Assembly: GCA_018292915.2 (NCBI GenBank)
Contig: JACVVK020000143.1
Span: 217,001 to 281,000 of the forward strand
Direction of reading: 5' to 3'
Origin: Batillaria attramentaria
Taxonomy: Eukaryota; Mollusca; Gastropoda; Batillariidae
Length of the DNA: 64,000 nucleotides
Part shown: positions 6,601 to 53,642 of the stretch, piece by piece
Position numbering within the stretch: position 1 is the stretch's first letter
Layout: every line of letters begins with the position of its first letter
Program-made: the position numbers and the translations under genes
Notes under the pieces: generated by a model
Told to the model about the DNA's origin: nothing
Seen by the model: only the letters and a program-made list of their open reading frames with translations
Database searches by the model: none

Positions 6601-9036
6601 CACTTCATGTGAAACAGAATGGACTAGTGTATATGTGATGAGCTGTTTCTACCCACTTTGTGCCTGCCTCTTTCTCTGTGCCACTGTCAACATTGGCTCT
6701 GTGTTGAAATGTTCATACATGTACGTAGGCTAGAAAGAGCAGTGGGGGTAGTGTTGATACTTCTTAGAGGACAGTGTTGACTTGTCCATGTTACTGTACC
6801 ATTGTCATATGTAGGCTACAGACAGCAGTGAGGGTAGTGGTGACACTACTGGGGTAGAGGACAGTGTAATGGGGGTACTTGTACAGCTGTGTGTTGACTT
6901 GTCCATGTTACTGTACCATTGTCATATGTAGGCTACAGACAGCAGTGAGGGTAGTGGTGACACTACTGGGGTAGAGGACAGAGTAATGGGGGTACTTGTA
7001 CAGCGGTGTGTTGACTTGTCCCATGTTACTGTACCATTGTCATATGTAGGCTACAGACAGCAGTGAGGGTAGTGGTGACACTACTGGGGTAGAGGACAGT
7101 GTAATGGGGGTACTTGTAGTTGTACAGCGGTGTGTTGACTTGTCCCATGTTACTGTACCATTGTCATATGTAGGCTACAGACAGCAGTGAGGGTAGTGGT
7201 GACACTACTGGGGTAGAGGACAGTGTAATGGGGGTACTTGTACAGCTGTGTGTTGACTTGTCCATGTTACTGTACCATTGTCATATGTAGGCTACAGACA
7301 GCAGTGAGGGTAGTGGTGACACTACTGGGGTAGAGGACAGTGTAATGGGGTACTTGTAGTTGTACAGGCGTGTGTTGACTTGTCCCATGTTACTGTACCA
7401 TTGTCATATGTAGGCTACAGACAGCAGTGAGGGTAGTTGGTGACACCTACTGGGGTAGAGGACAGTGTAATGGGGGTACTTGTAGTTGTACAGCGGTGTG
7501 TTGACTTGTCCCATGTTACTGTACCATTGTCATATGTAGGCTACAGACAGCAGTGAGGCTAGTGGTGACACTACTGGGGTAGAGGACAGTGTAATGGGGG
7601 TACTTGTAGTTGTACAGCGGTGTGTTGACTTGTCCCATGTTACTGTACCATTGTCATATGTAGGCTACAGACAGCAGTGAGGTAGTGGTGACACTACTGG
7701 GGTAGAGGACAGTGTAATGGGGGTACTTGTACAGCGGTGTGTTGACTTGTCCCATGTTACTGTACTATTGTCATATGTAGGCTACAGACAGCAGTGAGGG
7801 TAGTGGTGACACTACTGGGGTAGAGGACAGTGTAATGGGGGTACTTGTACAGCTGTGTGTTGACTTGTCCCATGTTACTGTACCATTGTCATATGTAGGC
7901 TACAGACAGCAGTGAGGGTAGTGGTGACACTACTGGGGTAGAGGACAGTGTCAGTGTAGAGAAGTGAGTATGACTGTCAATCTGCCACTTGATCCTTGTT
8001 GTCACTTGCCTTTACAAACTTTGCCTTGTTCTTTCTCCTGCTTTTGTTGGCTGCATTTCTTGTTTTTATTTTTTCACATTTTCCATGTTGGTTTGTCTTT
8101 TTTGGAGGGGTTGAGGGGGCTGTTTTGACTTCAGTTTGGTTCAGTTTTTATTTTGCATACAAATTTCAAACCTTGTTTTTCCTGTTAACTTTGATTGCAT
8201 TAGTGCAAGTACTACAAGTATCAGTAGGACAGTACACACTGTGCTCCAGACAGTCACACTTGGCTGTAGTGAAGTACCCAGCACTCACTATTAACTGGGG
8301 CCACCAGAAGTGTCAGCTGGGTGAAAGATTCAGGCCTGGGGAAGGGGAAGCAACTGCTGACTCGGTGATAAAAGCATGAATCAACTGTTCCCTCCAGCGT
8401 CCAGACTGTTTTGGTAGTGAAAGTGTAGGATGTGATGTTAGAAACTTGCCGTTCCCTTGCAGTGGTTATGTACATGTAATATATTACTGTCAATTGTAAA
8501 CCCGTGAAGTGTAGATAGGTCCATCCTGCCAGCAAACCTGGTGAATTTGTGAAAACCTCTTATGATGTTACTTGTACTTATGCTGTAATGATGGTTGTAA
8601 TCAAGTGTTGGTTTGTGTGTTGATGTGTTGATGTATGTAACAGAAGCGAGGTTAGCTGGATAGCCAAACACCATAGTGTGAAGACGAGAGACAAACAGCA
8701 GACAGTGAAGACATACAAGAGGACTCAGGTAACCGGTGCTGTATCCCCACAAAGTTCACTCAGTCTCGCCTTCAGCTGGCACAGAGTAGTAAGTCGATCC
8801 TTTCCATTGACATTTGTCTTTTTGCTTTCCAAGTATTTCACTCTGTCACTAAGACACAGAAGCTTGTTCTGTGCCCACACTTTCACAGTCTCAACTCAGT
8901 ACCCGCACTACACTGGCCACCAAACATTTTCCAGCTCTTGTGTCACTGTGAGTGATATATATTGTAGAATTTGGCTAGTGAATTTGAGTCCAACATTGTA
9001 CCGTATGTCTTCCACTTTCTCCATTATTATAATCCT

Positions 9037-9096
<60 letters not shown>

Positions 9097-13612: not shown

Positions 13613-13676
<64 letters not shown>

Positions 13677-13877
13677 CATGTAGAATAGCGGGACAGCCAG
13701 TAAGATAGGCAGCAATGCCTAAATGTTCTATCCTGAATAAAAACGATACATCATCATCATCTCTGTCTCTCATTGATGTAATGCTTTTCTTGTTTATGTG
13801 TATCTATGCTAATTGTGTGTTTGTGTATGTGTGTGTTTGTGTGTGTGTGTGTGTGTGTGTTTGTTTGTGTGTGTGTC

Positions 13878-13914
<37 letters not shown>

Positions 13915-14034
13915 CTGTGTGTGTGTGTGTGCAGTTTTCTAAGTTTCGTGTTTGTAGTTTAACAAGGACAAGATCTAAAAAAGGTCTGCACACCTAATCT
14001 TTTATCCTTGTAAAATAAAGTTTCGTTCGTTCGT

Positions 14035-14091
<57 letters not shown>

Positions 14092-16352: not shown

Positions 16353-16407
<55 letters not shown>

Positions 16408-17738: not shown

Positions 17739-19984
17739 TCTGATGTTGGTCATTGGTTGTGTCCCATCTCACCACCTTATTGCATGTGACAATGTTTTCA
17801 GACAAAAGAATGTTACGTTTTCAGTTACAAGGAACGTTACAATGTTTTCAGACAAAGGAACGTTACAATGTTTTCAGACAAAGGAACATTGCAGTGTTTT
17901 CAGACAAAGGAACGTTACAATGTTTTCAGACAGGAACATTACAATGTTTTCAGACAGGAACGTTACAGTGTTTTCAGACGAACGTTACAATGTTTTCAGA
18001 CAGGAACATTACAATGTTTTCAGACAAAAGAATGTTAAAATGTTTTCAGACAAAGGAACGTTACAATGTTTTCAGACAAAGGAACGTTACGATGTTTTCA
18101 GACAAAGGAACATTACAGTGTGTACTATGTTTTCAGACAAAGGAACGTCAAATTCAGGAACTGTCAAGAGACGCTTTGAAGCTTTCCAACAGACACATTC
18201 ATCAGCTGTGGTTGGCAGAGAAACAGGAACGGTATTAGTGTGTCTTTCACTTGGTCTTTTACATGACCATTCCATCAGCAGTCCTAAAGACTTAGAGTCA
18301 TACAGAATGGTCAAATCAGTTGATGTAAAGAGTTAATGTGGTAGAGGGAGTAACTGTTGTCATCCATCAGGTTCATGTGACAATATCAGGGTCTACATGG
18401 ATCACTTCAGCACCTGTGTGTATCTCATGTCTGTACATTTCCCAGAGCACAAACACTAGGGGAGTTTCGAGAGAACCTGCTGGGGGAGCTGTCTGCACTA
18501 GACAATGATGTGTCGGCACTGATGGAACTGGAAAAGAGGACAGAGGTTAGCAGATGCACTTTCTGTATAAGCCAGTGTCTTTCTGTGCTGCATGCCTTAC
18601 CTTGAGTCTTGTTATGCTTCAGTTGTGGACATAGTGAGTGAAAGTTGGTATGGAGGTCTTTCAGGCGTATGTTGTTTAGTGACCTCCCACAAAGGTTCTT
18701 TTTGCAAGATCAGTGTTTAGGTTCAAGGTGTAGAAACCAGTGTTTTCACTTTAAGTCTTGTGTGTGTCTTGTCCTAGGCCATCTATTTCCAACAAGTCAG
18801 AGCATTTAAGGAGTACAGAGAGAAACTGGAGAAAAGGTATGAACTGTATAGATCTGCATTGATCTCTTCTGTCCACCGTGGTTATTGGTAATCCACATAC
18901 AGAGTATGAAGAATCTTCACTGTGGGGTGCGCCTGATTATGTTAAGTACACCACCCTCGTGTGTTGATTTTTAAAAAGTGCATGTTGAACCTTGTGTTTC
19001 TGGGTTTAAATCATTCAACAAAGTTGTTGGTATATTTTACATAACCGGGGGCACCTCATTGTGAAAACTTTTTCTCAAAACATGACTGTTTTATTGCACT
19101 TTGTTTTTAGTACAAGTAGTATATGTCAGGCATCTGGTATGCTCTTATTTGTTCTAAGAATCACATTAATAGACTTTGAAACTTCTTACTTATAAAATGA
19201 TTGTAAATGAAGCTGATAGTGAAATAGTCAGCTGTGAGAGGTAACATGCTTATAACGTGTGAAACTGATGATGTGCGTAAGATAGTGAAATAAATGAAAG
19301 TGAGACGTACAGTAACATGCACCTGATAATGTGTGAAGGGTGAGAACAGTGAAGGGTCAGCATGAAGATTTCCACATGAAAAGTCAGCAGGCAGCGACAC
19401 ACAGTCTTCACACACAGGTAGGTGCCGGCTTCACATCATTGTCTGCACACGTGTCGGTCAGGAGTTCAGGTCTTTAGTCTTCACACGCAGGTCATTTCTC
19501 GCTTCTCGTCACAATCTTTATACTGCCACAGATCAGTCTTCACATTATCGGCTCACGTGTGTAACAATGGGAGTCTATGAACTAAAGCTCCGTTGTCTTT
19601 GTGTGTGTGTCTGTCTGTCTGTCTGTCTGTCCACAGTAAATGTATAGAAAACCTTAACATTGGCATTTTCTCAGGAACTACAAACACCAGAGGCACCAAA
19701 TCGTACAAAATGATAGACAACCACAAGACCTATACAGGGATTTCACTTTTAGTGACCTCTGCTGGAGGCCAAGGTCACAGGAATAGACTGCAAAATTTTA
19801 ATCTATTTACGTTTACTCTGGTGTAGCAAAGGTCAGGGTCACGAAATCCGGCATGATGATAGGCAGTGGTACCAGTGTCACCCACACCTAAGCATTGAAG
19901 GCTTTGCCTCTTGTATGTATGTGCTTCCCTCCTGTTGGTCCTCACATACAGTAACATGTACTTTTAAATTGTTAACTGTGCGTG

Positions 19985-26926: not shown

Positions 26927-27013
26927 TCATCCCGATGAGCCACCAGGGTTCCAAGGTTTGGCTTTCACGCGGTAGAACTTGGTTCCAACAGGAACCTTAA
27001 ACCTGTTCTGAGG
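26927..27013 (-). CDS. RB1CC1: RB1CC1 exon 28 (Claw end and stop)
   Basis: Acceptor GGTTTCAG. Reads PQNRFKVPVGTKFYRVKAKP then WNPGGSSG and TGA (26929-26927). Arg 1461, the Claw FIR-binding residue, is the fourth codon. Confidence 0.92.
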   Translation of the reverse strand, partial: PQNRFKVPVGTKFYRVKAKPWNPGGSSG

Positions 27014-30000
27014 CTGAAACCAAAGCCACAAAGAACGCGATAAAAACTTAAATGTCTAATGGACAACACAACACTAAGACACAGTCAATGAAGTAATGCA
27101 GACCCCAGCCCTTCCACTTCCACTTCCACCCTCCTTCTCCTAACTAGTCTCCGCCAACACTGATAGCAATTACATGAGACTGACAAACACTGACAACTGT
27201 GAGTTTTTCATTAAAACAATTAGTATACAACTCTCACTCAATAAAAAATAAACCAACAGTGGTAAGTGCCTGTAGTAAGTGCCTGTAATTTTGTTAAAGA
27301 AAAGATCAATGAAAAAGTTGATTTCACTTTCCGTTGAACACTGCTGGTATTTGCCCTGCAACCCAACTGCTATGAAAGTAGGAGACATCACAGTGGATAC
27401 CGACCTTCCTGGCCTGACAGTATTCCCGCTCCGTGATCTCCGCCAGCACCCAGTTCTTCCGCGGTTCCCCCTCCACTGGAACAACACACACACATACTTC
27501 TGCCATCACCTTGGTCTAACTTTGCACATAGCAAAGTACAACAGCCACTCAAGGCAAAACAAAATAAACAAGAAGATAACAATATCCCTCTAACAACAGG
27601 TTATACACAAGCTCAAGGCAAACTAGTCAAAGCGTTATCTGCAGTAAATGAATAGCGGTTGAGCAACTCTGATGGCTGCTAAACGCGGCTGCTCAAGAGT
27701 TTGCTGAAGTGGGCAAGTGGCAGCAGCAACGGACCAAGCATTAGTACAAACGGTGGTGAGAGAGTTGAGCTATCTATAGGAGACTGGGTATAAGGAAGAC
27801 TTACCAGAGTGAGAGAGTTGAGCTATCTATAGGAGACTGGGTATAAGGAAGACTTACCAGAGTGAGAGAGTTGAGCTATCTATAGGAGACTGGGTATAAG
27901 GAAGACTTACCAGAGTAAGAGAGTTGAGCTATCTATAGGAGACAGGGTATAAGGAAGACTTACCAGAGTGAGAGAGTTGAGCTATCTATAGGAGACTGGG
28001 TATAAGGAAGACTTACCAGGGTGAGAGAGTTGAGCTATCTGTAGGAGACTGGGTATAAGGAAGACTTACCAGAGTGAGAGAGTTGAGCTATCTGTAGGAG
28101 ACTGGGTATAAGGAAGACTTACCAGAGTGAGAGAGTTGAGCTATCTGTAGGAGACTGGGTATAAGGAAGACTTACCAGAGTGAGAGAGTTGAGCTATCTA
28201 TAGGAGACTGGGTATAAGGAAGACTTACCAGAGTGAGAGAGTTGAGCTATCTATAGGAGACTGGGTATAAGGAAGACTTACCAGAGTGAGAGAGTTGAGC
28301 TATCTATAGGAGACTGGGTATAAGGAAGACTTACCAGAGTGAGAGAGTTGAGCTATCTATAGGAGACTGGGTATAAGGAAGACTTACCAGAGTGAGAGAG
28401 TTGAGCTATCTATAGGAGACTGGGTATAAGGAAGACTTACCAGAGTGAGAGAGTTGAACTATCTATAGGAGACTGGGTATAAGGAAGACTTACCAGAGTG
28501 AGAGAGTTGAGCTATCTATAGGAGACTGGGTATAAGGAAGACTTACCAGAGTGAGAGAGTTGAGCTATCTATAGGAGACTGGGTATAAGGAAGACTTACC
28601 AGAGTGAGAGAGTTGAGCTATCTATAGGAGACTGGGTATAAGGAAGACTTACCAGAGTGAGAGAGTTGAGCTATCTATAGGAGACTGGGTATAAGGAAGA
28701 CTTACCAGAGTGAGAGAGTTAAGCTATCTATAGGAGACTGGGTATAAGGAAGACTTACCAGAGTGAGAGAGTTGAGCTATCTATAGGAGACTGGGTATAA
28801 AGGAAGACTTACCAGAGTGAGAGAGTTGAGCTATCTATAGGAGACTGGGTATAAGGAAGACTTACCAGAGTGAGAGAGTTGAGCTATCTATAGGAGACTG
28901 GGTATAAGGAAGACTTACCAGAGTGAGAGAGTTGAGCTATCTACAGGAGACTGGGTATAAGGAAGACTTACCAGAGTGAGAGAGTTGAGCTATCTATAGG
29001 AGACTGGGTATAAGGAAGACTTACCAGGCTTCAGTCCAAGAGAGTCCACAGAGTCGCTGTGTAAGAAGTGAAGAGTATTGCCCACAGTAAACACAACGTA
29101 CTGGTCGTGACGATCATCCAGACACAACAACACAAGGTCACCCACATAGCAGCTGCAACATCATTACACAGATTATGCTTCATGTACATATAACTAACCA
29201 TGTGTTCTTCAGCTGCGTACAGCTAATCCTGGTTTTCAATGGATTACGCATCGTATCACAACAAACATAAACTCATAATTGTTTGGAAGAGGGGAAACAT
29301 GCGAAACTAGAACTATACAGCCTGAGTTTGGAAGAGGGGAAACATGCGAAACTAGAACTATACAGCTTGGGTTTGGAAGAGGGGAAACATGCGAAACTAG
29401 AACTAACAGCTTGGTTTGGTTTTTTTTCAGAAGTGTGATTTCTCATTTAACAGGTTGTGTAAACAGGACAGGCGCCTCTGTGATGATCAAGAGGGAATCA
29501 CTAGCATGGACAATTGCAAAATTAGTCTCTAAACACACACACACACACAGATGATACAGACAACTCAACAAAAGATGAAAGTCACCTCAGTATTGAAACC
29601 TTGTCACGTGCTTCCCTGCGAGTACTGGCCGTCATGGACATGGTCATCTAGTAGACAGACAGCTTGGGATCAGTGTCAGTAGCTAACTACCTACCCTACA
29701 TTGCCAATGTAAAAAAACTTTCACCGTCAAAAGTTAAACCAACCTTCGCTGTACATCGCCTAAAAACTTGCGTGCCATAAATCGTGGGTGCAAACGCACC
29801 CACACTTAAGCAAGAAAACTTGCACGCTGTGAAAGTGTAGGCGCAACATACGGTGAAGATTAACTATTTGTTGTTTATACTGATCAGCAATAACTCAGGC
29901 GACTGAATTGCTAATATTTACAAGGTGACGGTTCGACTTCCTGGGTAAAGGTCCCCCAAACAAAAACATCAAACTCAAACTGATCATACAAAATCAATGT

Positions 30001-33000: not shown

Positions 33001-36000
33001 CCACAGTACATGTATCATGGTGTTTTTGTGTTTAGTCCAAATCCCACACTCACCCCCCCCCCACCCCCCCCCCCACCCCCCTTCCACAGTACATGTATCA
33101 TGGTGTTTTGTATTTAAGTCCACTCAATCCCGCACTCACCCCCACCCCCCCCCCCACCCCCTTCCACAGTACATGTATCATGGTGTTTTTGTGTTTAAGT
33201 CCAAATCCCACACTCACCCCCCCCCCCCCCCCCCTTCCACAGTACATGTATCATGGTGTTTTTGTGTTTAAGTCCAAATCCCCCACTCCCCCCCCCCCCC
33301 CCCCCCCTTCCACAGTACATGTATCATGGTGTTTTTGTGTTTAAGTCCAAATCCCACACTCACCCAGAAGCTGTGCGAGCGGGAGTGAGGCTGAATGGGG
33401 CGGCATCCGTGACAACAGTGGGCGAGAGAGGCGCTGTGGAGGTTGCCATGGAGTGAAGTTGATTGCTGTACTGGCTGAGTTGCTGCTGCATTAAGGCCAC
33501 CTCATCCTCCAGACGACGATTCTCACGTCTGATGAATAAACAAATCTCATTCACAAACTGTTTGGTAGCGAGCGAGCATGTGCTGTACAAACTGTTTGGT
33601 AGCGAGCGAGCATGTGCTGTACAAACTGGTAGCGAGTGAGCATGTGCTGTACAAACTGTTTGGTAGCCAGTCAGCACGTCATGTAAAACCTGTCTGGCAG
33701 CGAGTCAGAATGTGCTGTACAAACTGTTTGGTAGCCAGTCAGCACGTCATGTAAAACCTGTCTGGCAGCGAGTCAGCACGTCATGTAAAACCTGTCTGGC
33801 AGCGAGTCAGCACGTCATGTAAAACCTGTCTGGCAGCCAGTCAGCACGTCATGTAAAACCTGTCTGGCAGCGAGTCAGCACGTCATGTAAAACCTGTCTG
33901 GCAGCCAGTCAGCATGTGCTGTACAAACTAAAATGTCACCTCACACTCACCAAGGAACACTATGTTTCCCCAGACACCTGGACGTATGTACATACAGGCG
34001 ATCAGGGTGAAACAACAGAAAAGGTGTGTAGCTGTTATGGAAAGAACGTACATTTAGTGATTTACAGGCAGGCAGACGGTCACTTACATTAACTGTAACT
34101 CCCTCTCTTTGACATCTGTCAGTCTCTTCCTGATGCTGTCAGTATTACCGTCTCCAGCGTTCAGCTCATCTCCCGACACTAGAAAACATACGGATCATTG
34201 TTTACAGTAACATCATCAGGTAAACAATATTTTAACAGCCTGGTGTCAAATCAACTGGCCAGTTAAGTGGGATGTTGAATATGATGGGAATAACACATGA
34301 CACTGGAAGAACATTTAGCTGAGCGAGAAAAGTGGAACCCTTACCTTGCGACTCCAACTCCTTCACTTTGTTGCGGAGTTCCTCAATAGTGCGATCTTTG
34401 TCTTGTACCGCTCGACTCACTGCCTCATTAAACTGGACCTGATAACACCAGTACACACAACCCTGTCACAATGGTGTCAACTATGTGCATCCACAGTGTT
34501 CATATGAGAGGCGTCAACCAGTGTTCATATGAGAGGCATCAACCACAGTGTTCATATGAGAGGCATCAACCAGTGTTCATATGAGAGGCATCAACCACAG
34601 TGTTCATATGAGAGGCATCAACCAGTGTTCATATGAGAGGCATCAACCACAGTGTTCATATGAGAGGCATCAACCAGTGTTCATATGAGAGGCATCAACC
34701 AGTGTTCAAATGAGAGGCATCAACCACAGTGTTCATATGAGAGGCATCAACCAGTGTTCATATGAGAGGCATCAACCAGTGTTCATATGAGAGGCATCAA
34801 CCACAGTGTTCATATGAGAGGCATCAACCAGTGTTCATATGAGAGGCATCAACCAGTGTTCATATGAGAGGCATCAACCAGTGTTCATATGAGAGGCATC
34901 AACCACAGTGTTCATGTTAGAGGCATCAACCAGTGTTCATATGAGAGGCATTAACCACAGTGTTCATGTTAGAGGCATCAACCACAGTGTTCATGTTAGA
35001 GGCATCAACCACAGTGTTCATGTTAGAGGCATCAACCAGTGTTCATATGAGAGGCATCAACCACAGTGTTCATGTTAGAGGCATCAACCACAGTGTTCAT
35101 GTTAGAGGCATCAACCACAGTGTTCATGTTAGAGGCATCAACCACAGTGTTCATGTTAGAGGCATCAACCACAGTGTTCATATTAGACTTAGAGGCATCA
35201 ACCACAGTGTTCATATTAGCAGCATCAAAACCAGGTAAAGCCTCAAACTACAGCAGGCACACAAGTATTACTCTGTATCGTATGTGGAAAAGCCTTCGTA
35301 AGCAACTCTCACACTGCAACTACTTCACTGATATACCTACCACAAAGTGACTAACACCTTACCTGTCTCTCTACCACCCAACCATACATCTACACAAGAC
35401 AGAAGTGACCAACACCTTACCTGTCTCTACACAACACAGAAGTGACCAACACCTTACCTGTCTCTACACAAGACAGAAGTGACCAACACCTTACCTGTCG
35501 CTACACAAGACAGAAGTGACCAACACCTTACCTGTCTCTCTACCACCCAACCATACATCTACACAAGACAGAAGTGACCAACACCTTACCTGTCTCTACA
35601 CAAGACAGAAGTGACCAACACCTTACCTGTCTCTACACAAGACAGAAGTGACCAACACCTTACCTGTCTCTACACAAGACAGAAGTGACCAACACCTTAC
35701 CTGTCTCTACACAACACAGAAGTGGCCAACACCTTACCTGTCTCTACACAACACAGAAGTGACCAACACCTTACCTGTCTCTACACAACACAGAAGTGAC
35801 CAACACCTTACCTGTCTCTCTACCACCCAACCATACATCTACACAAGACAGAAGCGACCAACACCTTACCTGTCTCTACACAACACAGAAGTGACCAACA
35901 CCTTACCTGTCTCTACACAACACAGAAGTGACCAACACCTTACCTGTCTCTACACAACACAGAAGTGACCAACACCTTACCTGTCTCTACACAAGACAGA

Positions 36001-39000
36001 AGTGACCAACACCTTACCTGTCTCTACACAAGACAGAAGTGACCAACACCTTACCTGTCTCTACACAACACAGAAGTGACCAACACCTTACCTGTCTCTA
36101 CACAACACAGAAGTGACCAACACCTTACCTGTCTCTACACAACACAGAAGTGACCAACACCTTACCTGTCTCTACTCAAGACAGAAGTGACCAACACCTT
36201 ACCTGTCTCTACACAACACAGAAGTGACCAACACCTTACCTGTCTCTCTACCATCCAACCATACATCTACACAACACAGAAGTGACCAACACCTTACCTG
36301 TCTCTACACAACACAGAAGTGACCAACACCTTACCTGTCTCTACACAACACAGAAGTGACCAACACCTTACCTGTCTCTACACAAGACAGAAGTGACCAA
36401 CACCTTACCTGTCTCTACACAAGACAGAAGTGACCAACACCTTACCTGCCTCTACACAAGACAGAAGTGACCAACACCTTACCTGTCTCTACACAACACA
36501 GAAGTGACCAACACCTTACCTGTCTCTACACAACACAGAAGTGACCAACACCTTACCTGTCTCTCTACCACCCAACCATACATCTACACAACACAGAAGT
36601 GACCAACACCTTACCTGTCTCTACACAAGACAGAAGTGACCAACACCTTACCTGTCTCTACACAAGACAGAAGTGACCAACACCTTACCTGTCTCTCTAC
36701 CACCCAACCATACATCTACACAAGACAGAAGTGACCAACACCTTACCTGTCTCTACACAAGATAGAAGTGACCAACACCTTACCTGTCTCTCTACCACCC
36801 AACCATACATCTACACAAGACAGAAGCGACCAACACCTTACCTGTCTCTACACAACACAGAAGTGACCAACACCTTACCTGTCTCTCGGCCATGACGCTG
36901 GTTTTCATGGAGGCCATGGACTCGTCTTTATCCTTCTGGTGTTGACGAATCATCTCCTCCATCTTTCTCTCCAGGTCACTACGCTGATCCTCCAGTGCCT
37001 GTAGTACAGTAACATACCGTTACACCAACATCACCAACCTGTGTTACAGTAACATACAGTTACACCATCATCACATCATCACCAAACTGTTACAGTAACA
37101 TACTGTTACACCAACATCACCAACCTGTGTTATAGTAACATACAGTAACAACATCTCCAACCTGTGTTACAGTAACATCATCACATCATCACCAAACTGT
37201 TACAGTAACATACCGTCATACCAACATCACCAACCTGTGTTACAGCAACATTCAGTACACCAACATCACCAACCTGTTACAGTAACACCAACATATGTTA
37301 CAGTAACAGTAGATCAACATCACCAACCTGTGTTACAGTAACATACAGTAACACCAACATCACCAACCTGTTACAGTAACACCAACATATGTTACAGTAA
37401 CAGTAGATCAACATCACCAACCTGTGTTACAGAAACATACAGTAACACCAACATCACCAACCTGTTACAGTAACACCAACATATACAGTAACAGTAGATC
37501 AACATCACCAACCTGTGTTACAGTAACATACAGTAACACCAACATCACCAACCTGTTACAGTAACACCAACATCACCAACCTGTTACAGTAACACCAACA
37601 TATGTTACAGTAACAGTAGATCAACATCACCAACCTGTGTTACAGTAACATACAGTAACACCAACATATGTTACAGTAACAGTAGATCAACATCACCAAC
37701 CTGTGTTACAGTAACATACAGTAACACCAACATCACCAACCTATGTTACAGTAACACCAACATATGTTACAGTAACAGTAGATCAACATCACCAACCTGT
37801 GTTACAGTAACATACAGTAACACCAACATCACCAACCTATGTTACAGTAACACCAACATATGTTACAGTAACAGTAGATCAACATCACCAACCTGTGTTA
37901 CAGTAACATACAGTAACACCAACATCACCAACCTGTTACAGTAACACCAACATATGTTACAGTAACAGTAGATCAACATCACCAACCTGTGTTACAGTAA
38001 CATACAGTAACACCAACATCACCAACCTGTTACAGTAACACCAACATATGTTACAGTAACAGTAGATCAACATCACCAACCTGTGTTACAGAAACATACA
38101 GTAACACCAACATCACCAACCTGTTACAGTAACACCAACATATGTTACAGTAACAGTAGATCAACATCACCAACCTGTGTTACAGAAACATACAGTAACA
38201 CCAACATCACCAACCTGTTACAGTAACACCAACATATGTTACAGTAACAGTAGATCAACATCACCAACCTGTGTTACAGTAACATACAGTAACACCAACA
38301 TCACCAACCTGTTACAGTAACACCAACATATGTTACAGTAACAGTAGATCAACATCACCAACCTGTGTTACAGAAACATACAGTAACACCAACATCACCA
38401 ACCTGTTACAGTAACACCAACATATGTTACAGTAACAGTAGATCAACATCACCAACCTGTGTTACAGAAACATACAGTAACACCAACATCACCAACCTGT
38501 TACAGTAACACCAACATATGTTACAGTAACAGTAGATCAACATCACCAACCTGTGTTACAGTAACATACAGTAACACCAACATCACCAACCTGTGTTACA
38601 GTAACCTACAGTAACATCATCGCCAACCTACATCACCATCATCTCAACACACCACACAGCCCACTCCCCATTCTAAAGTTAGTGTGTTTGTGTTACATTA
38701 CAGCAGTGTAACATTAACTCAACTGTGAGGTTTCTCACCTGTTGATACTGCAAGGTGACCTGAAGTTTCACCGCCCTCTCTGCCTCAGTCACCAGCTCCT
38801 GGTGACGTTCCATCACCGCCCTCTCCACCTCCGCCACTAACTCCTGGTGACGCTCCAACGTCATCACCTCCCCGCCCTCACTCTGAGTTGCCTGCTCCAT
38901 TGTTAGAGGGCGCTGCTGCAAGGACCGTAACTCTGCTTGTGTCCTGTCCCTTTCAGCATCAAACTCTGCTCTCAGCTGACCGAGCGTTTCTGCGGCTTTG

Positions 39001-39389
39001 GACCGTGACTGTTCCAGCAGTTGCTCCAGTTCCATCTTGTGTTCTTGTGCCAACTTCTCTCTCACCTCCTCCACCTGCCTCACTTGAACAGCCTGCATTT
39101 CTGCACGCAGTTTTTCCATCTCTGCAATTTTTTCTTCACCGGCTTGGCGCCGCTCCTGCTCCATTTTTTGCTGCATGTCTGTACGCGCGGCCTCCAGCTC
39201 CTGTTTGTGTTGCGTGCCCAGTCTCTCCAACAGCTGGTTAATCTCGCGCTGCTTGCTGGACGCAAACTCCTCCTCCAATGTAGCGCTCATCTTCTCCTTC
39301 TCGGCTACAAACCCTCGCACCAGCTCCTCCGACCGCACCTCTCTCTCCTGCTGCACCTGAATACACACACGCACGCACACACACACACA

Positions 39390-39441
<52 letters not shown>

Positions 39442-41020
39442 GCATTGTGCGAAAGGAATCTGTATTAAAATTAGTTTTAAGACTATTATAATAAGAGGGT
39501 AAGAACTGGTTTACAGGGAGTTCATAAAACAATCCTGTTACGTTACACTGGTATTTCACACACACACAGGGTGCTGAAAAGTTGATGAACAGACCTACCT
39601 CACCTGTTAAAGTAATACAGATCATCTATTTTACATGCATATTCATGTACGCGCCACACAGGAAGCAGACAGTAGTACATGTGCACCCGTAACTAGCGTT
39701 GTCAATTCCAGCACTATACCTGTCAACTCTAAGAAGGGAGAATGTTATATACTAATCCATAAAAATCAGAACACACTCACTTGTAGATTACAATGTGTAA
39801 GCTTGTCATCTCTACATGTTCTACATTACGACAAATTATCATATTTACATACATGTACAGACACACACATGCTATTTCTAGCTCTAATCATTTACCAGTC
39901 CCTAATAGTGTACATTTACCAGTCCTTATCAGTGTACATTTACCAGTCCCTATTAGTTCTACAGTTACCAGTCCCTCATTTAGTGTACATTTACCACGTC
40001 CCTAACAGTGTACATTTACCAGTCCCTAACAGTTGTACATTTACCCAGTCCCTAATAGTGTAACATTACCATTCCCTAACAGTGTACATTTTACCAGTCC
40101 CCCTAACAGTGTACATCTTACCAGTCCCCCCCTTCCTAACAGTGTACATTTACCAGTCCCTAACCAGAGTACATTTACCTAGTCCCTAACAGTGTACATT
40201 TACCAGTCCCTAACAGTGTATCATTTACAGTCCCTAACAGATGTACATTTACCAGTCCCCTAAGGTACATTACCAGTCCCTAACGTGTTACATTTACCAG
40301 TCCCTAACAGTGTACATACCAGAGTACATTTACCAGTCCCTAACAGTGTACATTTACCAGTCCCTAACAGTGTACATTTACCAGTCCCTAACAGTGTACA
40401 TTTACCAGTCCCTAACAGTGTACATTTACCAGTCCCTAACAGTGTACATTACCAGTTCCCTAACAGTGTACATTTACCAGTCCCTAACAGTGTACATTTA
40501 CCAGTCCTAATAGTGTACATTTACCAGTCCCTAACAGTGTACATTTACCAGTCCCTAACAGTGTACATTTACCAGTCCCTAACAGTGTACATTTACCAGT
40601 CCCTAATAGTGTACATTTACCAGTCCCTAATAGTGTACATTTACCAGTCCCTAACAGTGTACATTTACCAGTCCCTAACAGTGTACATTTACCAGTCCCT
40701 AACAGTGTACATTTACCAGTCCCTAATAGTAATAGTGTACATTTACCAGTTAACCCTACCTGGTGCAGTCTTTTTTCTGCCTGGTGCAGCTGCTCCTCCA
40801 GACGAGCGATCTCGGCTTCCTGTTTATCCATGGCGGCCTGCATCTCCGTGCGAATATGATCAGCCTCCAGCTCCGTCTCCAGAATACTCTTACTCTTTAT
40901 CTCCACCAGTTCCGCCTCGTGCTTCTCCTGCATGGCCAACAGTTCCTTCTGACTCGACTCACGTACCTGCTGCAGCTCCTTGTTGAGGTCGGCAATGCCA
41001 TGTGACACTTTCAGCATGCC

Positions 41021-41060
<40 letters not shown>

Positions 41061-44000
41061 GTTGATGCAGCAAACACACAACAGCTGATGTAGCAAACAC
41101 ACACACAAATATCACATGACAATTTATAGAAAATGGCCAATGTGATGTAACAGTTTCACTCTGTATGTCTAGGATCAGGAATACATTAGAAACAACAGCA
41201 ACTGATGCGCCGCACCTACAGTATCCTCAACAGCCAAAATCAACAAATCAATCAATCAATCAATTATTTGGATGTTTTCATCCACACCATGTGATAAGCA
41301 ATGCCTACTGTCACTGTGTCTTGGAAATGTGCTAAACAATAAAATAAAAACCACAAAAATGTCAATGGAAACTATATCAGTGATATACTGACAGCATTAA
41401 TGTGCCCCCCCCCCCCCCCCCCCCCAACACCAATCGCAAAACAAACATCACAACCAAAACACCAGAACTAAATGGATAAAAAAGGTTGTGAGTGCACGCA
41501 TCATCATCACCACCATCCTCCTCATCATCACCACCACCATCACGTTACCTGTTGAAGTTCCTCGATGTGTCGATTCTTGGTGTCCAGCTGAGACTCAAGC
41601 CCGCTGACGGTCACCTGACTGCTGTCCCTCTCTTGGTTCAACATGTCACCATGACAACGCTCCATCTCCTCCACAAATGATGTGCACACACTGAGAACCG
41701 AACCCTCCACCTCCGACACTGCACGAGTCACCATACTGCGACTATCCATGACTGCGCCCCTGATACTCGCCAAACTATCCTTCAGCACACGTACATCCTT
41801 ATTTAACATGGTCTGTAGCTGTGCTGTTTTGTCCACTGAGGCGGCCAGTTTGTTTTGCAAGGCACTGACTTCCGCTTCCAGCTGAGTGACACGTTGTGTC
41901 TTTTCCACCAGCATACTGTCCACCTCACTCTCTTCCTTGTCGGACGCTGACGGTTTGGGCGGCGAGTCCGTCATGGAGGAAGGCATGGAATCCTCGATGT
42001 AAAAGTCGGCTGTGGTGAACTCTTGCGAAGTTTCCACATCTGGCGAAGTATCGGAAGTAGCTTTACCGCGCCGCTTGCTGCGAGGTTTGCGATCGGTGAG
42101 ACTCTCGTGACTAACAGCATCGCTGTCGGACGACTTGGTAGGCTCTTGATCACCGGATGAGAGGAGCTGACCGTCACCGCTACCCTCCTGTTGTTGATGT
42201 CGCTCCTGCCTTACACCACCACCCTCCGCCCCAACAACTTCTCCTGTCTGAGGCGACGACGACATCACACTGACAGTAATTGTGCTCATGGCTGCTGAAT
42301 TGACCTGTCATACACAGGACAGATTTCTTTCAGTACATCCTCAACAGCATCAGAAACAAGTATTTTAAAGACTGTATCTAAAGAAAAAGATCTGAAAACT
42401 GCAAGCAGAAGTAACAAGACAAACATCAATGAAAGGAACAAGAGAACTGGTCAAGGAAGAAGAGAACTGCGTGTACAAGGCAAGTCAAAACCTACCTCAG
42501 CAGTGAGGGTCTCTGACAAGCACTCTGGCACGGTGAACTGTTCCTGAAGAGACAACGCCAGACGGTCATCAACCGACATGCGCCTCTCTCCCTGTCTCTC
42601 CTCTTGGTAGCTTAGCGACAACCGGTCACGCTCCGCTGGCTCAAACAACAACACACCAAGCGCGTCATGGCCTTCGAGTGAGCCGCTGACGGAGCGCGTG
42701 GTGGACATGACTGACTGAGCCACAGAGATCATGGACTGGGTGACAGCAGTGGTGCGAGGTTCGGATCCGCCATCAGCAGCTAGTGGAGTTTGGAAAGAGG
42801 ACGCCATGCCAGGCGAGCCAGTTTCACTTGGAATTCTGACAGAAAGCACAGCCAGGTAAAAGTTACAAAACCCAACGGACGATGGATACAGCAATAATAA
42901 CAAACGAACACTATGACCAACAGGCCCAACGGATGATGGATACAGCAATAATAACAAACGAACACTATGACCAACAGGCCCAACGGATGATGGATACAGC
43001 AATACACTGTAATGACAAACGAACACTATGACCCAGGGCCCGTATGTAGAACTCGAGGTTAATTTAACCCATGGCTACGGGCCTAACCCAGACTAGGACA
43101 AAAGAAACCCCAAAACAACATTAAATAAAAAAAGGAAGTGAAGAAAGAAAGACAAAAATCCTTCTATAACGGCATAGGCATCTTGCTGGAATGGACCTGC
43201 TTCCTCATTTAAAACAAAAAACAACAGAAAATTTAACCCTAGAGCTAGTTTAGTTCGAGGTTAGACTCTAACCCGGGGCTAAACTCCCTAACCCTGACTT
43301 TTACATGCGGGCCCAGGTTTGTATCTCCTCACAGGATCACTTGTTCACCTGTTCCCTAGCAAACATCTCAACCTGCCAAACTTCCAGGCACCAAACTCCA
43401 GACTTGGATAGCGCAAAGAGGAAAGTGTGTGGGAATGTGTGGGAACGGGAACATAATTGTATTGCAGATCTAGGTTCATTAAGTCCATCTTCAACAGTGC
43501 TGCCCCCTTTACATGTGTCGGTGGTGCCAGAGAAGGAAATAACTTTGTCAGCCACAATGGTAATGAGAAAGGCAAGTCATGTAAAGTGACTATAGGTAAC
43601 TGACTCAACATGTGACTACCCTACCTCAACATGTGACAACATTATATCCACATCTGACTACCGTACTTCAACATGTAACTACCATATCTCTGTATCGGAC
43701 CACCGTACCTCAACACATGACTACTGTACCTCAACATGTGACCACCATACCTTTACAGATGACTACTATGCCCCAGTGCCTGAATACTGTACCTCAACGC
43801 GCAATTACTGTATCCCAACATATGACTACCATACCTCAAATACCTGACTACCGTATCTCAACACCTGACTACCACACCTCAACATCTGACTCAAGTACCT
43901 TACCACATTCGTGAGTTTGAATCCTGGATGGGGCCAAATATATGTGCTGGCCTTTTCTCAATGCCCCGGTTTTTTTATATCACCTATATGTGGTGGAAAA

Positions 44001-45516
44001 TGACATTCAACTCCCAAACACCCACCCACCCATGACTAGCGTACCTCAACAGATGGCGTAGTTCCGGCACAGCCTGTCCAACAGCACCAACATCAGCCTG
44101 TGATATACATGGCAGCGACCCGTCAAATTCCTTCGGAGGCTCCGTCTGAAGCAGAAACACAAGCCTGTAGTTATAAAAGGTCCTGATGTTGATACATGTA
44201 TGTTGAAATAGTTACAATTTGATCGGCCGACCACCGATCCCTGAATCCCTGAAAGTGATCCGTCATTTCTTACAGACAGTACCGGTAGCCATTTTCTTTT
44301 CTGTCACTACGGCTGCTGGCAGATTACATCTTTAACCCTGGTAGTGCTGCGATCAGGGATATTCCGGGCTACCTCTTGTGTTTTTTTTTTCTGCATAAGA
44401 CAAATTAATTCAGCAAGGCCAGAGCTAAGAAACATCCTACAGTCCATACATCCTGGACCGGGCAAACAGTCCACACATCCTGGACCGGGCAAACAGTCCA
44501 CACATCCGGGACCGGGCAAACAGTCCACACATCCGGGACCGGGCAAACAGTCCACACACCCGGGACCGGGCAAACAGTCCACACATCCGGGACCGGGCAA
44601 ACAGTCCACACATCCGGGACCGGGCAAACAGTCCACATCCGGGACCGGGCAAACAGTCCACACATCCGGGACCGGGCAAACAGTCCACACATCCGGGACC
44701 GGGCAAACACTCCACACATTCGGGACCGGGCAAACACTCCACACATCCTGGACCAGACAAACACTCCACACATCCTGGACCAGACAAACACTCCACACAT
44801 CCTGGACCAGACAAACACTCCACACATCCTGGACCAGACACTCCACACATCCTGGACCAGACAAACACTCCACACATCCTGGACCAGACAAACACTCCAC
44901 ACATCCTGGACCAAACACTCCACACATCCTGGACCAGACAAACACTCCACACATCCTGGACCAGACAAACAGTCCACACATCCTGGACCAGACAAACAGT
45001 CCACACATCCTGGACCAGACAAACAGTCCACACATCCTGGACCAGACAAACACTTCACACATCCGTTCTTTCCAAGACAGCTTCTTTCACAAGTTACAGC
45101 ATGCATATCGCAATCTTTCTCATTTTTTTTGGCATGAAAATTCCCCCCATTTTTTCAGCATCCGGCCCCTCCACCCCCTATCCAGCCCCTCCACCCCAAT
45201 CCGGCCCCTCCACCCCAATCCGGCCCCTCCACCCCAATCCAGCCCCTCCACCCCAATCCAGCCCCTCCACCCCAATCCGGCCCCTCCACCCCAACCCTCT
45301 CAAGTATTCAGCGTTCATAATTTCAGTACTGGTGGATCTTGAATGTTGAATTTTTTTGGAATGATCCATTTATTCATCCTTGGGCAAAATTCCTGATGTT
45401 CTCTGGCACATTTATACTGAAAAATGAGAAGGATTACAGTAAATATTGGCACCTGCACTAGCTCTTTCTCTTGTTTACTTGCACACACACCCACATACAC
45501 CCCCCCCCCCCCACCC

Positions 45517-45575
<59 letters not shown>

Positions 45576-48500
45576 ACGCAGATCTTGTGTACTGTGTACA
45601 ACATGATAACTCACTGCAAACTTTGGCACATTGTCCCTGAATCCTGTGAACATTTTTTGCAGGAAGTGGGATCCTGGAAAAGAAATGTTATGATCATTAT
45701 TAACACTGTGTCATCACATCTAGCAATATGAAGAGAAATGTTAGGATCATTACTAACACTGTCATCACATCTAGCAATATGAAGAGAAATGTTAGGATCA
45801 TTATTAACACTGTGTCATCACATCTAGCAATATGAAGAGAAATGTTAGGATCATTATTAACACTGTGTCATCACATCTAGCAATATGAAGAGAAATGTTA
45901 GGATCATTACTAACACTGTGTCATCACATCTAGCAATATGAAGAGAAATGTTAGGATCATTATTAACACTGTGTCATCACATCTAGCAATATGAAGAGAA
46001 ATGTTAGGATCATTACTAACACTGTGTCATCACATCTAGCAATATGAAGAGAAATGTTAGGATCATTACTAACACTGTGTCATCACATCTAGCAATATGA
46101 AGAGAAATGTTAGGATCATTACTAACACTGTGTCATCACATCTAGCAATATGAAGAGAAATGTTAGGATCATTACTAACACTGTGTCATCACATCTAGCA
46201 ATATGAAGAGAAATGTTAGGATCATTACTAACACTGTGTCATCACATCTAGCAATATGAAGAGAAATGTTAGGATCATTATTAACACTGTGTCATCACAT
46301 CTAGCAATATGAAGAGAAATGTTAGGATCATTATTAACACTGTCATCACATCTAGCAATATGAAGAGAAAATACAGAAAGAGCAACAAGAAATAAAGTCA
46401 TTACACTTACCAAGCAACTCCCCCCTCCCCCCCCCCCCCCAACACCTTTACAACTAAAGAGAGGAATGTTGCCAAACACACAGTAGTGAAGGGAGGGAAG
46501 CAATGTCTGACCGTATTGACGAGTGAAAGACTTGCGGCGCTGCATTTCCTTTTTGTGTTGACGACGGGATTCTTGAGATACCTCCACCACCCACTGCAGC
46601 AAAACAACAACACATACACAATGACTGGCAGCAAAATAACAACACATACACAATGACTGGCAGCAAAACAGCAACACATACACAATGACTGGCAGCAAAA
46701 CAGCACCACATACACAATGACTGGCAGCAAAATAACAACACATACACAATGACTGGCAGCAAAACAGCAACACATACACAATGACTGGCAGCATAACAGC
46801 AACACATACACAATGACTGGCAGCAAAATAACAACACATACACAATGACTGGCAGCAAAACAGCAACACATACACAATGACTGGCAGCAAAACAGCAACA
46901 CATACACAATGACTGGCAGCAAAACAGCAACACATACACAATGACTGGCAGCATAACAGCAACACATACACAATGACTGGCAGCATAACAGCAACACATA
47001 CACAATGACTGGCAGCATAACAGCAACACATACACAATGACTGGCAGCATAACAGCAACACATACACAATGACTGGCAGCATAACAGCAACACATACACA
47101 ATGACTGGCAGCATAACAGCAACACATACACAATGACTGGCAGCATAACAGCAACACATACACAATGACTGGCAGCAAAATCAATACTCTAGACCAGATT
47201 AACACCTAATAAACAAATGAACAATGACTGGTACAAATAATGTAAGATAAACATCAGATAAACAAAGAAATGGAGATGTAGATCTGATAAGCACCAGCTA
47301 AAGGACGATGTACATCAGACAACAACAGCAACCAACCATCCACACCTAGTTACCTGCTGATTTCATCGCACGCACATACACACAATCGGAACTAACATGT
47401 ACATGTACTAATAACCCTGATAACTAAGTAATATGTAGAACAAGACGTGCCCAGCTGGATATAGTGGGATGCCCCTCTTCAACACAGCAATATGAAAAGA
47501 TGCGAGCCAAAAACCTGACCACACGAGACAGGAGAATCCTCAGAGAGTACCGACAACATTAGTTCATACAGAAACGTCTGAGTGACAGTGTGGCATTGGG
47601 CGGTGAGTGACTACTCACCTTCATGTAGTGCTGGGAAAACAGCCTGGCGGTGAGTGACTACTCACCTTCATGTAGTGCTGGGAAAACAGCCTGGCGGTGA
47701 GTGACTACTCACCTTCATGTAGTGCTGGGAAAACAGCCTGGCGGTGAGTGACTACTCACCTTCATGTAGTGCTGGGAAAACAGCCTGGCGGTGAGTGACT
47801 ACTCACCTTCATGTAGTGCTGGGAAAACAGCCTGGCGGTGAGTGACTACTCACCTTCATGTAGTGCTGGGAAAACAGCCTGCGACGCACGACTTCCACTA
47901 TCATTGAGGCGTACGCCATGGGCGCAGTCTCCACCTGATGCAGTAAACCAGCGCGTGTTTTGATACGATCCACGTTGTCATGGTACAGCCACAGTTTGTT
48001 GTCCATTGAGTTGACCGTGCGCTGGACGTACATCACCCACCTACACAACCAAAAGCAACGTGCATGTCTACACTCTCTACTTCTACTGTAGTTGTATTTC
48101 CACATCACAAGCAGTCAATGAGTCATGAATAACATCACCTCCCAAAAAAAAAAACAATCAGAGCAAAACATGCATCTTTCAGTGTCACATCTCATTCGTA
48201 CTCATCACAAGAGAATGTCAGCAGAAAAACAGCCTAAACGGGCACCAGATGAACTTAAAGGAGCGCTAGATTAACCCAGATAATCATCATAGTTTAAAGA
48301 AGCGCTAGATTAAGCAAGAAACTCATCATAGTATAAAGAAGCGCTAGATTAAGCAAGAAACTCATCATAGTTTAAAGAGGCGCTAGATTAAGCAAGAAAC
48401 TCATCACAGTCAGGCGCTAGATTAACCCAGAAACTCATCATAGTTTAAAGAGGCGCTAGATTAAGCAAGAAACTCCTCATAGTCTAAAGAAGCGCTAGAT

Positions 48501-51500
48501 TAACCCAGAAACTCATCATAGTCTAAAGAAGCGCTACATTAACCCAGATAATCATCATAGTCTAAAGAAGCGCTAGATTAACCCAGATAATCATCACAGT
48601 CTAAAGAAGCGCTAGATTAAGCAAGAAACTCATCATAGTTTAAAGACGCGCTAGATTAACCCAGATAATCATCATAGTCTAAAGAAGCACTAGATTAACA
48701 TGATAGTCTACCTGAGACGCGTGTGCAGGTTGGCTGACAGCTCCTCTTTGGCCGCAGTACATTTACGTTTGATATCCCGCAGCTTCTTGTGATTGGACAA
48801 CATCTGTGTCAGCTGACGCTTGTGGGAGGAGCAGAGGTCAGGCAGAATACTGTTATCCTTCAGGTCGGAGAGTCGAGTCTGGTTCTGCACGAATCCCTGT
48901 GGGTGAGAAAAACACTGCACGTCAGGCATTAGCAACAGTTGTGTGTGTCTGTGATAATGTACTTACAACTAGGAGCTCCGTCTTGCACAAAGCATAATAA
49001 CGGTGCATCAGTATAAATAACATATGGTCAATGTTTAGAACATAATCATGAATTACACAGATTCAACGTCAGTTCAGACAAACAAGACAGACCACAGCAA
49101 GGACTCACCTTGTTACTTGCCAGACAAAAGAAATCAAACTCTCATAGTCGAAATTCATCGTCTGATCCTTCCACCCAGCAGTAGCTATTAGTTTATGTGA
49201 CATAGTTACTACTTCAGTTTGAGAGAGCGACAAGTGCAGTAGTCACCTGTGTTTACTAACTTCAGTTTGAGAGAGCGACAAGTGCAGTAGTCACCTGTGT
49301 TTACTAACTTCAGTTTGAGAGAGGGACAAGTGCAGTAGTCACCTGTGTTTACTAACTTCAGTTTGAGAGAGCGACAAGTGCAGTAGTCACCTGTGTTTAC
49401 TAACTTCAGTTTGAGAGAGCGACAAGTGCAGTAGTCACCTGTGTTTACTAACTTCAGTTTGAGAGAGGGACAAGTGCAGTAGTCACCTGTGTTTACTAAC
49501 TTCAGTTTGAGAGAGGGACAAGTGCAGTAGTCACCTGTGTTTACTAACTTCAGTTTGAGAGAGCGACAAGTGCATAGTCACCTGTGCCATGTGGTGTTGC
49601 TCCTCCAGCAGTTTGCGAGCGGTGGACATGAGCTGATCAAGGCCGTACAGACGATCCTCCAATCCCTTCACTTCTTTCATCTCTGGCGCCTGTGTGTAGT
49701 TAGTTGCGTCCGTGATCTCCCCGACAACTTTCTCTTCCAGCGCCTCGTTCATCTGTCAACCACCACACTTGAACTGGTCAGGCATCACAGTAAAATACCA
49801 TGATGCTTTCTTTAAAACGATGGTTCCCTGATTGATATTGCTGCCGAAACACTAAAACAGCGTCCAAGTGAAAAAAATCCACCAACCACCAACTGAAGTA
49901 GTGTGTGGTGTCACGGTTCACTGTGTAGCGTGACAGTTCAGTGTGCAGAGTCATATTTCAGTGTGTAGTGTCATGGTTCAGTGTGTGGTCTTACAGTTCA
50001 GTGTGCAGTCACATTTCAGTGTGCAGCGTCACAGTTCAATGTGTAGGTGCATTGTCAAGGTTCAGTGTGAAGTGTCACAGTTCAGTATGTATTGTCACGG
50101 TTCAGCGTGCAGTGTCACGGTTCAGCGTGCAGTGTCACGGTTCAGCATGTAGTGTCACTGTTCAGCGTGTAGTGTCACGGTTCAGTGTGAAGTGTCACTG
50201 TTCAGCGTGTAATGTCACTGTTCAGCGTGTAATGTCACTGTTCAGTATGTAGTGTCACTGTTCAGTGTGTAGTGTCACTGTTCAGTGTGTAGTGTCACTG
50301 TTCAGTGTGTAGTGTCACGATTCAGTGTGTAGTGTCACTGTTCAGCGTGTAGTGTCACGATTCAGTGCCCCTCACCTGCATGGTGCCAGTGTGTAGATTG
50401 TTGATCACATCCTCCATACGGTTCTTTGGATCCTGAACACAGTAAACAATCATCATGACGCATCACACTAACAACACTTGACACAGCACAAACACATTTC
50501 ATCACACGACATAAAAAGCTTGCAACATCAAAGATGTTACACAGAGCGCTCCAATCAGTCCACACACAATGTACGAAAAGATAAATGTGGAGATTTAATG
50601 AACTAAAAACCAAAACAAACAAAGAAAGCATTTGTGGATAGAGAAGAAGAAGTGTGTTCACCTGTGTGTTTATCCAGGAGTAGAGCGTCACCTGACCTTT
50701 GCGCTGCGTGTGTGACTGAGCATCAACTGAAGTTTGTGACTGAGTCACCGACCCCTGGTCCTGTGCTCCCTCCAGACATGTCAACACCGGGATCTTCTCC
50801 AGCAACACCAGCGTCTCCGGGATCCTGCAGTATATGAGTGGTCATGTCAACATCAACAACAACTAACCCTGACCGACAGTGGGATCTTCTCCAGCAACAC
50901 CAGCGTCTCCGGGATCCTGCAGTATATGAGTGGTCATGTCAACATCAACAACAACTAACCCTGACCGACAGTGGGATCTTCTCCACCAACACCAGCGTCT
51001 CCGGGATCCTGCAGTATATGAGTGGTCATGTCAACATCAACAACAACTAACCCTGACCGACAGTGGGATCTTCTCCACCAACACCAGCGTCTCCGGGATC
51101 CTGCAGTATATGAGTGGTCATGTCAACATCAACAACAACTAACCCTGACCGACAGTGGGATCTTCTCCACCAACACCAGCGTCTCCGGGATCCTGCAGTA
51201 TACGAGTGGTCAAGTCAACATCAACAACAACTAACCCTGACCAACACCGGCATGTTCTCCACCAACACCAGCGTCTCCAGATCCTGCAGTACCAAGTCCA
51301 CATCATGCGAGCAACACACAGCAAACACTGATGATGATATTTCTCATATCCCAATCATGACAGAGCTACAACAGATCTATACAGCAACATAAACATTCGG
51401 ATGGCAAACGTCTTACTTCTGTACTTTCCTCATAATTAATGTGTCGGTAGTCTGATAGAAAATTTCGCTGTATGAATTTAGGCCAACTAAGAAATATACA

Positions 51501-53642
51501 CAACAGGATTTCCCACCTTCGCAGAAGAGCCAGGATGTCCTCTCTGGTGGCGATGTACTGACAAAACTCTTTCTGGAACAACTTGGCGCGTTGACTGAAT
51601 GCACTGCACACAACACAAGTACGAACGGTCACATGCAGTGATCATAACACTTGGACTTAATATAATGAACATAACTAATCCAACATACACATGCAAGGCT
51701 TGCATTTTCTCACACGCAACAATACACTCACTTTGCAGAATCTTCCCCCATGCAACCATACACTCACTTTCCGGCATCCTCCCACACACAACAATACACT
51801 CACTTTCCGGTATGTTCCCACACACAAGAAGACACTCACTTTCCAGCATGTTCCCCCAAACAACAATACACTCAATTTCCGGCATCTTCCCACACACAAT
51901 ACACTCACCTTCCGGCATCTCTCGCAAACAACACTGTATGTAAACCAACAACTCACCTGACCAGGTCCTCTAGGTTGGCGACGACAGCGGCCCACCCCTG
52001 TTGCTGTAGATGCTGGTCTAACACCAGTCGCTCGCACGCCTTCAGTTCCTCCGTGTCAATCTCATGGATTTGCTATCACACACACAATGGGGGTTAACCT
52101 CAACGCATGTCAACATGGATTTGCTATCACACACACAATGGGGGTTAACCTCAACGCATGTCAACATCAGCTGATCAATCACAAGCTGTTAGGGTTTTTT
52201 GGCACAAGCCTCATGGATTTGCTGACAGTATCACACAAGCCTCATGGATTTGCTGACAGTATCACACAAGCCTCATGGATTTGCTGACAGTATCACACAT
52301 GCCTCATGGATTTGCTGACAGTATCACACATGCCTCATGGATTTGCTGACAGTATCACACATGCCTCATGGATTTGCTGACAGTATCACACATGCCTCAT
52401 GGATTTGCTGACAGTATCACACATGCCTCATGGATTTGCTGACAGTATCACACATGCCTCATGGATTTGCTGACAGTATCACACATGCCTCATGGATTTG
52501 CTGACAGTATCACACATGCCTGATTTCTAAACTGCTAATCACTTCATACACACTCTACATTATAGCTTTGTAAATGGCGTTTTCCTGAGGGTCGGACAAT
52601 AGCATTTAATACCACAAGCACTACTACTAGGTATATGTAAATGGCGTTTTCCTGAGGCAGGCATGAAAACAGATTTTTTAAAAAAAGAGGAGATTTGGTG
52701 GGGGTCTGGGGCTGAAGCTTTTTTACAAGTTAAACAGGCACAAAACGCATTAAAAATCACCAAATCTTCCCTTAAACACTCTCCTTCCACAGAACTCATA
52801 ACCATTCATATCATGCACACAGAACAACAGGAAAATAGAACTCATCAGAAAGGTTTTTAATTTTAGCAGAAAGGTACATCACCACTACCACTCAACCAGC
52901 CTGCGTTGACTGTTCACTGAACACAGAAAGAGGGACAGTAATTCACTTCACTTTCAAAAGTTAATATAACCTGACGTTGCCCCGTCTTTGATATCAGTAT
53001 CACCCGTACGTGTCAGTTTCCTGAGTTTCTGTCTACTGTTTTAGTTTCTTGCTGAAAAAGGCTCTGATATCAGGACCAAACCGTTTCCGCTTCCTTGATG
53101 TGGATGAGGAGGGCATGGATGGCAGCTGCGGACCGGATGACTGACAATGAACACCGAGACTAGTGAGAGTCCCTGGAAGGCACGCCACAAAGTGGTTGGG
53201 ACGCCAGTTATCTGCGTTTCCTTTCAAAGCTGCGACTCGCTGCTGATGAGAAGGGCGCTCGATGTGGTCTCGAATCGCAACAAAGCCACGACTCCCAAAA
53301 TGAACGTGTTTCTGGCACAGATTGCAGAAAACTTCCAGCTGATCGTCTTTATCGCGTTTTCGGATGGCATCTCCAACCCTCTGGTCGCACACCTTTCTCT
53401 CCAACCACTCACTCTTCCAACGGTTTGCATATTTCTTCTTTTTAAGTTGTTTCTCTATAGAGAAACAACTTTATGAGACGGGGCAGATTTTGCTACGCGC
53501 AGCAGCAAGTTTCAGTGATACAAAACAAAACTGTGACGTTTCTCCAAACAATACTTACTTTCACGCACACAGTGACGTAACGAAACCTGCGTCATAGACA
53601 CCTTACGTGCACACTTTGCTGCTGCGTTCTTTTTGGCGGGAA

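Follow-up and report, generated by a model that had tools for sequence, protein, structure and literature searches.

The stretch of 64,000 nucleotides from Batillaria attramentaria that we analyzed (the window) contains minisatellites that run up to, and in places across, the splice junctions of their host genes, and it raises the question whether exon-intron junctions attract tandem duplication or whether repeats seeded blindly in introns would produce the same picture. The initial annotation took the former view and listed ten cases in which the tandem unit next to an exon was said to contain that exon's own splice site and some of its exon bases.

Gene models and arrays in the window

Most arrays sit in RB1CC1, a gene of 28 exons on the minus strand (26927..59082). 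When the array copies adjoining the exons are used, its model has 4458 coding bases in a single frame, with the last codon as the sole stop. The first ab initio models were rejected because decoy sites produced rows of micro-exons; a stricter ab initio run gave the draft from which the protein-backed model was built. In the PDB, the chain translated from this draft hits RB1-inducible coiled-coil protein 1 (8soi, E 1.3e-70), and most of the exons in the window match the deposited B. attramentaria RB1CC1 protein (P0001, BaRGS_00019674) at or near 100%. On reading, the model also agrees with a related protein of other source (P0002), which carries no array-encoded insert at the RB1CC1 array junctions. 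Exons 3 and 4 are missing from BaRGS_00019674, which takes in array-encoded residues near 133-146, 448-581 and 1259-1279, and annotators should be warned that this deposited snail model treats array copies as protein.

Arrays were defined as Tandem Repeats Finder (TRF) calls with a period of at least 10, and calls were merged. They make up 36.9% of the window, a share that rises to 60.2% in the RB1CC1 intron sequence, and since TRF coverage in nine fetched myosin regions is 1.5-22.7%, RB1CC1 is unusually array-dense. TRF found near-identical tandem copies at all of the places named in the initial annotation, with unit lengths of 26-117 bp in the ten listed cases that vary between loci, and the consensus units of the affected introns appear unrelated when compared by eye. 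The longest array in the window is ~2.4 kb. A pyrimidine-rich array of 2.1 kb in RB1CC1 intron 3 (55614-57720) has a sense-strand GC skew of -0.95.

Seven of the 30 merged intronic arrays of RB1CC1 extend into an exon, by 1-36 bases, at the donors of E9, E11, E19, E22 and E26 and the acceptors of E5 and E7. A search for copies of each junction found shared exon bases at 8 of the 54 RB1CC1 junctions and nothing at the other 46. The sharing is longest at the E7 acceptor, where 36 exon bases recur in an array of 92 bp x 5.5 (50789..51291, minus strand, as are all RB1CC1 arrays given here), and at the E11 donor, where 28 exon bases recur in an array of 47 bp x 6.0 (47599..47881); the exon part of the latter unit, the E11 tail, aligns to RB1CC1 in the PDB. 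Ten bases are shared at the E5 acceptor (52063..52167, 51 bp x 2.1), 8-9 at the E19 donor (35389..36887, 37 bp unit, 37 copies with an intact GT), five at the E9 donor (49206..49586, 48 bp x 8), three at the E26 donor (27756..29027, 53 bp x 24, 23 donor copies) and 1-2 at the E22 donor (30940..33364, 72 bp x 33). On reading, the unit of a further array 130 bp upstream of E5 (52203..52521, 31 bp x 10.3) also copies the first E5 bases.

The eighth junction is the E14 donor, absent from the initial list, which shares seven exon bases with a decayed array of 21 bp x 13.7 (43604..43891). This array lies ~150 bp from the donor, and between them is a dispersed SINE-like repeat (43909..44032, minus strand) that starts 12 bp into the intron and is identical to 54822-54700 at 102 of 125 aligned positions, suggesting that the repeat may have split an older junction array. 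The dispersed repeat has three copies in all (54640-54832, 43909-44032 and 57944-58008), which are 82-85% alike; a tRNA scan of 54500-55000 found no tRNA gene, and we call the element SINE-like as a guess from its dispersed copies.

Other arrays stop just short of an exon. The array before E12 (46596..47180, 32 bp x 18.3) ends 2 bp away and that before E13 (45677..46370, 53 bp x 13.2) 3 bp away, each with zero exon bases, and the distances at E3, E8 and E10 are 5, 8 and 12 bp; the near-stops at E13, E3, E8 and E10 are likewise additions to the initial list. Overlapping arrays and those within 12 bp comprise seven on the donor side and five on the acceptor side of RB1CC1 exons. At the E12 acceptor, which the initial annotation had included, the junction-copy search found no junction copy in the adjoining array.

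The remaining two of the ten listed cases belong to a second gene on the plus strand, whose exons and both junctions are predictions. An array of 117 bp x 9.8 (6774..7951) spans the predicted acceptor at 7899 and shares 53 exon bases, and an array with a 26 bp unit (17789..18148; TRF 17789-18121) shares 12 exon bases at the predicted acceptor 18137. The gene had been named SYCP2-like, and while RB1CC1 as one host is confirmed, this second identification is not: a homologue search kept 0 of 7986 scored candidates, Pfam gave no match, and in the PDB the sole match, to SYCP3, was weak (E 0.085). An array in the open frame of this gene (3769-4307) has a unit of 114 bp, a multiple of three; we excluded it from the count of exonic arrays, as TRF also reports a period of 229 bp, two units plus one base, and the frame is only putatively coding. 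Taken over the ten cases, nine units hold the exon's own splice site, those at 7899 and 18137 being predicted, and the one at E12 does not; the "some exon bases" amount to 8 or more in six, 1-5 in three and none in one.

The rows of decoy splice sites described by the initial annotation do exist. Scored with a generic splice matrix, the decoys reach or surpass the score of the real site in 5 of 5 copies at E11 (all five scoring equally), 23 of 23 at E26, 36 of the 41 candidate donor copies at E19, 29 of 65 at E22 and 3 of 5 at E7; at E9 the scoring hit GT sites other than the true copies and is uninformative. None of the units at E7 (92), E11 (47), E19 (37) and E26 (53) is divisible by three, and splicing at the next copy of E11 runs into a stop, so that regular splicing at inner copies would disrupt the reading frame.

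Array placement under blind seeding

In our null model, each array was collapsed to one unit and placed blindly in its own intron, with exon overlap permitted. Seven RB1CC1 arrays overlap an exon where 5.5 are expected (P 0.30), a match that makes a junction preference unnecessary for this count, and ten touch or overlap a junction against 6.4 expected (P 0.075). A null that forbids overlap lets none occur, and the large apparent excess that follows is a product of that assumption. If junction-spanning duplications are less tolerated than purely intronic ones, on the other hand, the counts would mask some preference. Array edges give a different result: at distance thresholds that were picked after inspection of the data, 10 of the 30 arrays have an edge within 12 bp of a junction (3.6 expected, P 0.0016) and 20 overlap or come within 36 bp where the null gives 10.9 (P 0.0001). 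Restricting the set to the 22 arrays with units of at least 20 and about three copies gives P 0.005 and 0.0015 for the two distances, and setting the RB1CC1 introns 25% shorter gives P 0.012 and 0.008. Array edges are thus nearer to RB1CC1 junctions than blind seeding predicts, and this residual is unexplained.

Within exons, arrays are depleted. Only 1 of 31 RB1CC1 arrays is exonic, against 8.4 expected (P 0.0007), and this one, at 38768-38857 in E18, is a verified duplication with a 45 bp unit, a multiple of three. Among the intronic arrays, 11 of 30 units are multiples of three, which equals chance.

For independent genes we located exon places of the myosin head (81) and kinesin (134) and used 129 of the 215. 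The 295.4 kb fetched around some of these places contain 129 exon hits, 96 arrays and 200 junctions that were called; four further places within the fetched sequence, C7:2895242, C24:3040675 and C190:377926, which contain stops, and C7:2896154, a weak match, were left out before counting. The final count used paired splice-site calls, an acceptor on C173 corrected by hand and five more stretches. Contact or overlap with a junction is seen in seven of the 96 arrays, where 2.8 are expected (P 0.016, a value that includes two doubtful cases, kC179 with a probable mis-called donor and kC90 in AT-rich simple sequence; five arrays are left without them). Exon overlap again agrees with blind seeding (3 against 2.3, P 0.41), four arrays have an edge within 12 bp (1.8 expected, P 0.10), and nine come within 36 bp (5.0 expected, P 0.058). 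An earlier, smaller count of 91 arrays had given seven touching against 2.8 (P 0.022) and four overlapping against 2.4 (P 0.21). Two of the touching arrays are clear cases, both in kinesin genes: one of 84 bp x 3 at a donor (L025) reaches 27 bases into an exon ending SSRSHAVFQ, and one of 67 bp x 10.9 at an acceptor (L027) reaches 44 bases into an exon starting GSERQAKTGATGQRL, both translated by eye. We take this exon end and this exon start to be conserved kinesin motifs.

That real splice junctions lie within several arrays that look unrelated is therefore borne out, in RB1CC1 and in the kinesins. The further claim of the initial annotation, that junctions are preferred start points of duplication, divides: the counts of exon overlap (7 against 5.5 and 3 against 2.3) fit blind seeding, and the proximity of array edges to RB1CC1 junctions goes beyond it, as does, weakly, the number of touching arrays in the other genes.

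Relation to amphioxus mirages

The initial annotation was aware of no earlier description of such arrays. In amphioxus, however, minisatellite-like tandem repeats across exon-intron boundaries have already been published as "mirages" (PMC3087553, PMC3902484), and the two papers name them in Adh3, the globins BflGb6 and BflGb9, PGBD5 and TnC and cite a 2002 paper for the original Adh3 mirage. The snail arrays resemble mirages in that donors or acceptors are hit, the units look unrelated and vary in length, and splice signals recur in many copies. The unit holds exon as well as intron bases at E5, E7, E11 and E19 (8-36 exon bases) and, by array overlap, at the two kinesin junctions (27 and 44 bases); at E9, E22 and E26 the exon bases number 1-5, and at E12 there are none. 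Both boundary types and differing unit lengths are found in the snail as well. The snail arrays differ in their gastropod host and in that seven occur in one gene, some sharing just 1-5 exon bases. For the amphioxus mirages, RT-PCR is reported to back normal splicing, and somatic instability is reported as well; for the snail RB1CC1, the observation that bears on splicing is the intact frame read from the exon-adjoining copies.

Two other known systems share some features. Short units, high identity and growth next to unique sequence are shared with ordinary intronic minisatellites, such as the 27 bp minisatellite of variable copy number in an intron of the abalone TSSK1-like gene, for which the accessible part of the report (PMC6905558) describes no overlap with a splice junction, unlike the snail arrays. 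Intron gain by tandem genomic duplication also carries AG/GT signals (PMC3087553; see also PMC4974935); unlike it, the snail arrays multiply existing junctions in existing introns. A search of the open-access literature, with most subscription journals outside its scope, gave no mollusc mirage among the matches listed. By their structure we class the snail arrays as mirages, known in kind and new in host phylum as far as the search reached. Amphioxus is the only source of mirages among the papers seen, while the snail RB1CC1 carries seven and the kinesins more, and the snail cases suggest that mirages may typify any minisatellite-rich genome. If they are general, they would offer natural tests of how a splice site is chosen among identical neighbors, and of intron growth or gain.

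Origin of the junction arrays

Probably, in our judgment, the snail mirages come from the same blind birth and growth of repeats as the rest of the intronic arrays, with selection sorting the survivors. Copies would arise through replication slippage or break repair and then enlarge by unequal exchange. A duplication within an exon would usually be eliminated by selection, while one that spans a junction would be tolerated because the splice site still attached to the exon (the first in a donor row, the last in an acceptor row) would be the one used, and the surplus copies would depart with the intron. The exon-derived part of the intronic copies could then drift, as the real exon cannot, and this drift would bring array ends near the junction. 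Against this explanation stand the edge clustering in RB1CC1, the excess of touching arrays elsewhere (7 of 96 against 2.8) and the deposited RB1CC1 model, which reads array copies as coding.

Both the excess of edges near RB1CC1 junctions and that of touching arrays in the other genes would be expected if splice junctions were true hot spots of tandem duplication, owing to R-loops, U1/U2-bound nascent RNA or polymerase pausing, and the same pattern reported in amphioxus (PMC3087553, PMC3902484) points the same way. We nevertheless consider hot spots unlikely, given that exon-overlapping arrays are not in excess and that donors and acceptors are both hit (seven donor-side and five acceptor-side arrays). 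R-loops, proposed as a cause by the initial annotation, find no support, because 19 of the 30 arrays are sense-strand G-rich but this bias is no greater than that of the remaining intron, which is equally skewed. If hot spots did operate in snails and lancelets, distant animal lineages would keep copying their own exon edges, and junction chromatin or co-transcriptional splicing would trigger tandem duplications.

The proximity excess in RB1CC1 could also reflect arrays that function in splicing or expression and are kept beside exons by selection; with seemingly unrelated units, widely different copy numbers and few arrays in most of the nine sampled myosin regions, we judge this very improbable. 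Equally little weight falls on the reverse order of events, in which the arrays are older and exon edges were recruited inside them: E22 and E26 share almost no exon sequence, which leaves the order there unfixed, but the bases that the unit shares with the exon code for conserved residues at E11 and in both kinesins. An artefact of long-read assembly would be suggested by the copy numbers, which are those of the assembly, and by the data behind it (PacBio Sequel subreads, FALCON-Unzip and Pilon on a highly heterozygous genome; PMC10382545). It is extremely improbable all the same, since the longest array of ~2.4 kb compares with library fragments of ~20 kb (PMC10382545) and the pattern is seen again in unlinked genes. 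The preferred reading remains blind seeding followed by selection.

The myosin and kinesin matches yielded two minor observations. Three consecutive myosin-head matches (L012-L013; G000:C31:2208866, 2209878 and 2211663) cover the same profile stretch of ~118-152 and may be exons used alternatively in a muscle myosin gene. Equal or near-equal match scores in the contig pairs C102/C259, C24/C225, C138/C311, C343/C70 and C244/C359 suggest haplotigs left in the assembly, and these putative pairs would be useful for comparing array length between haplotypes.
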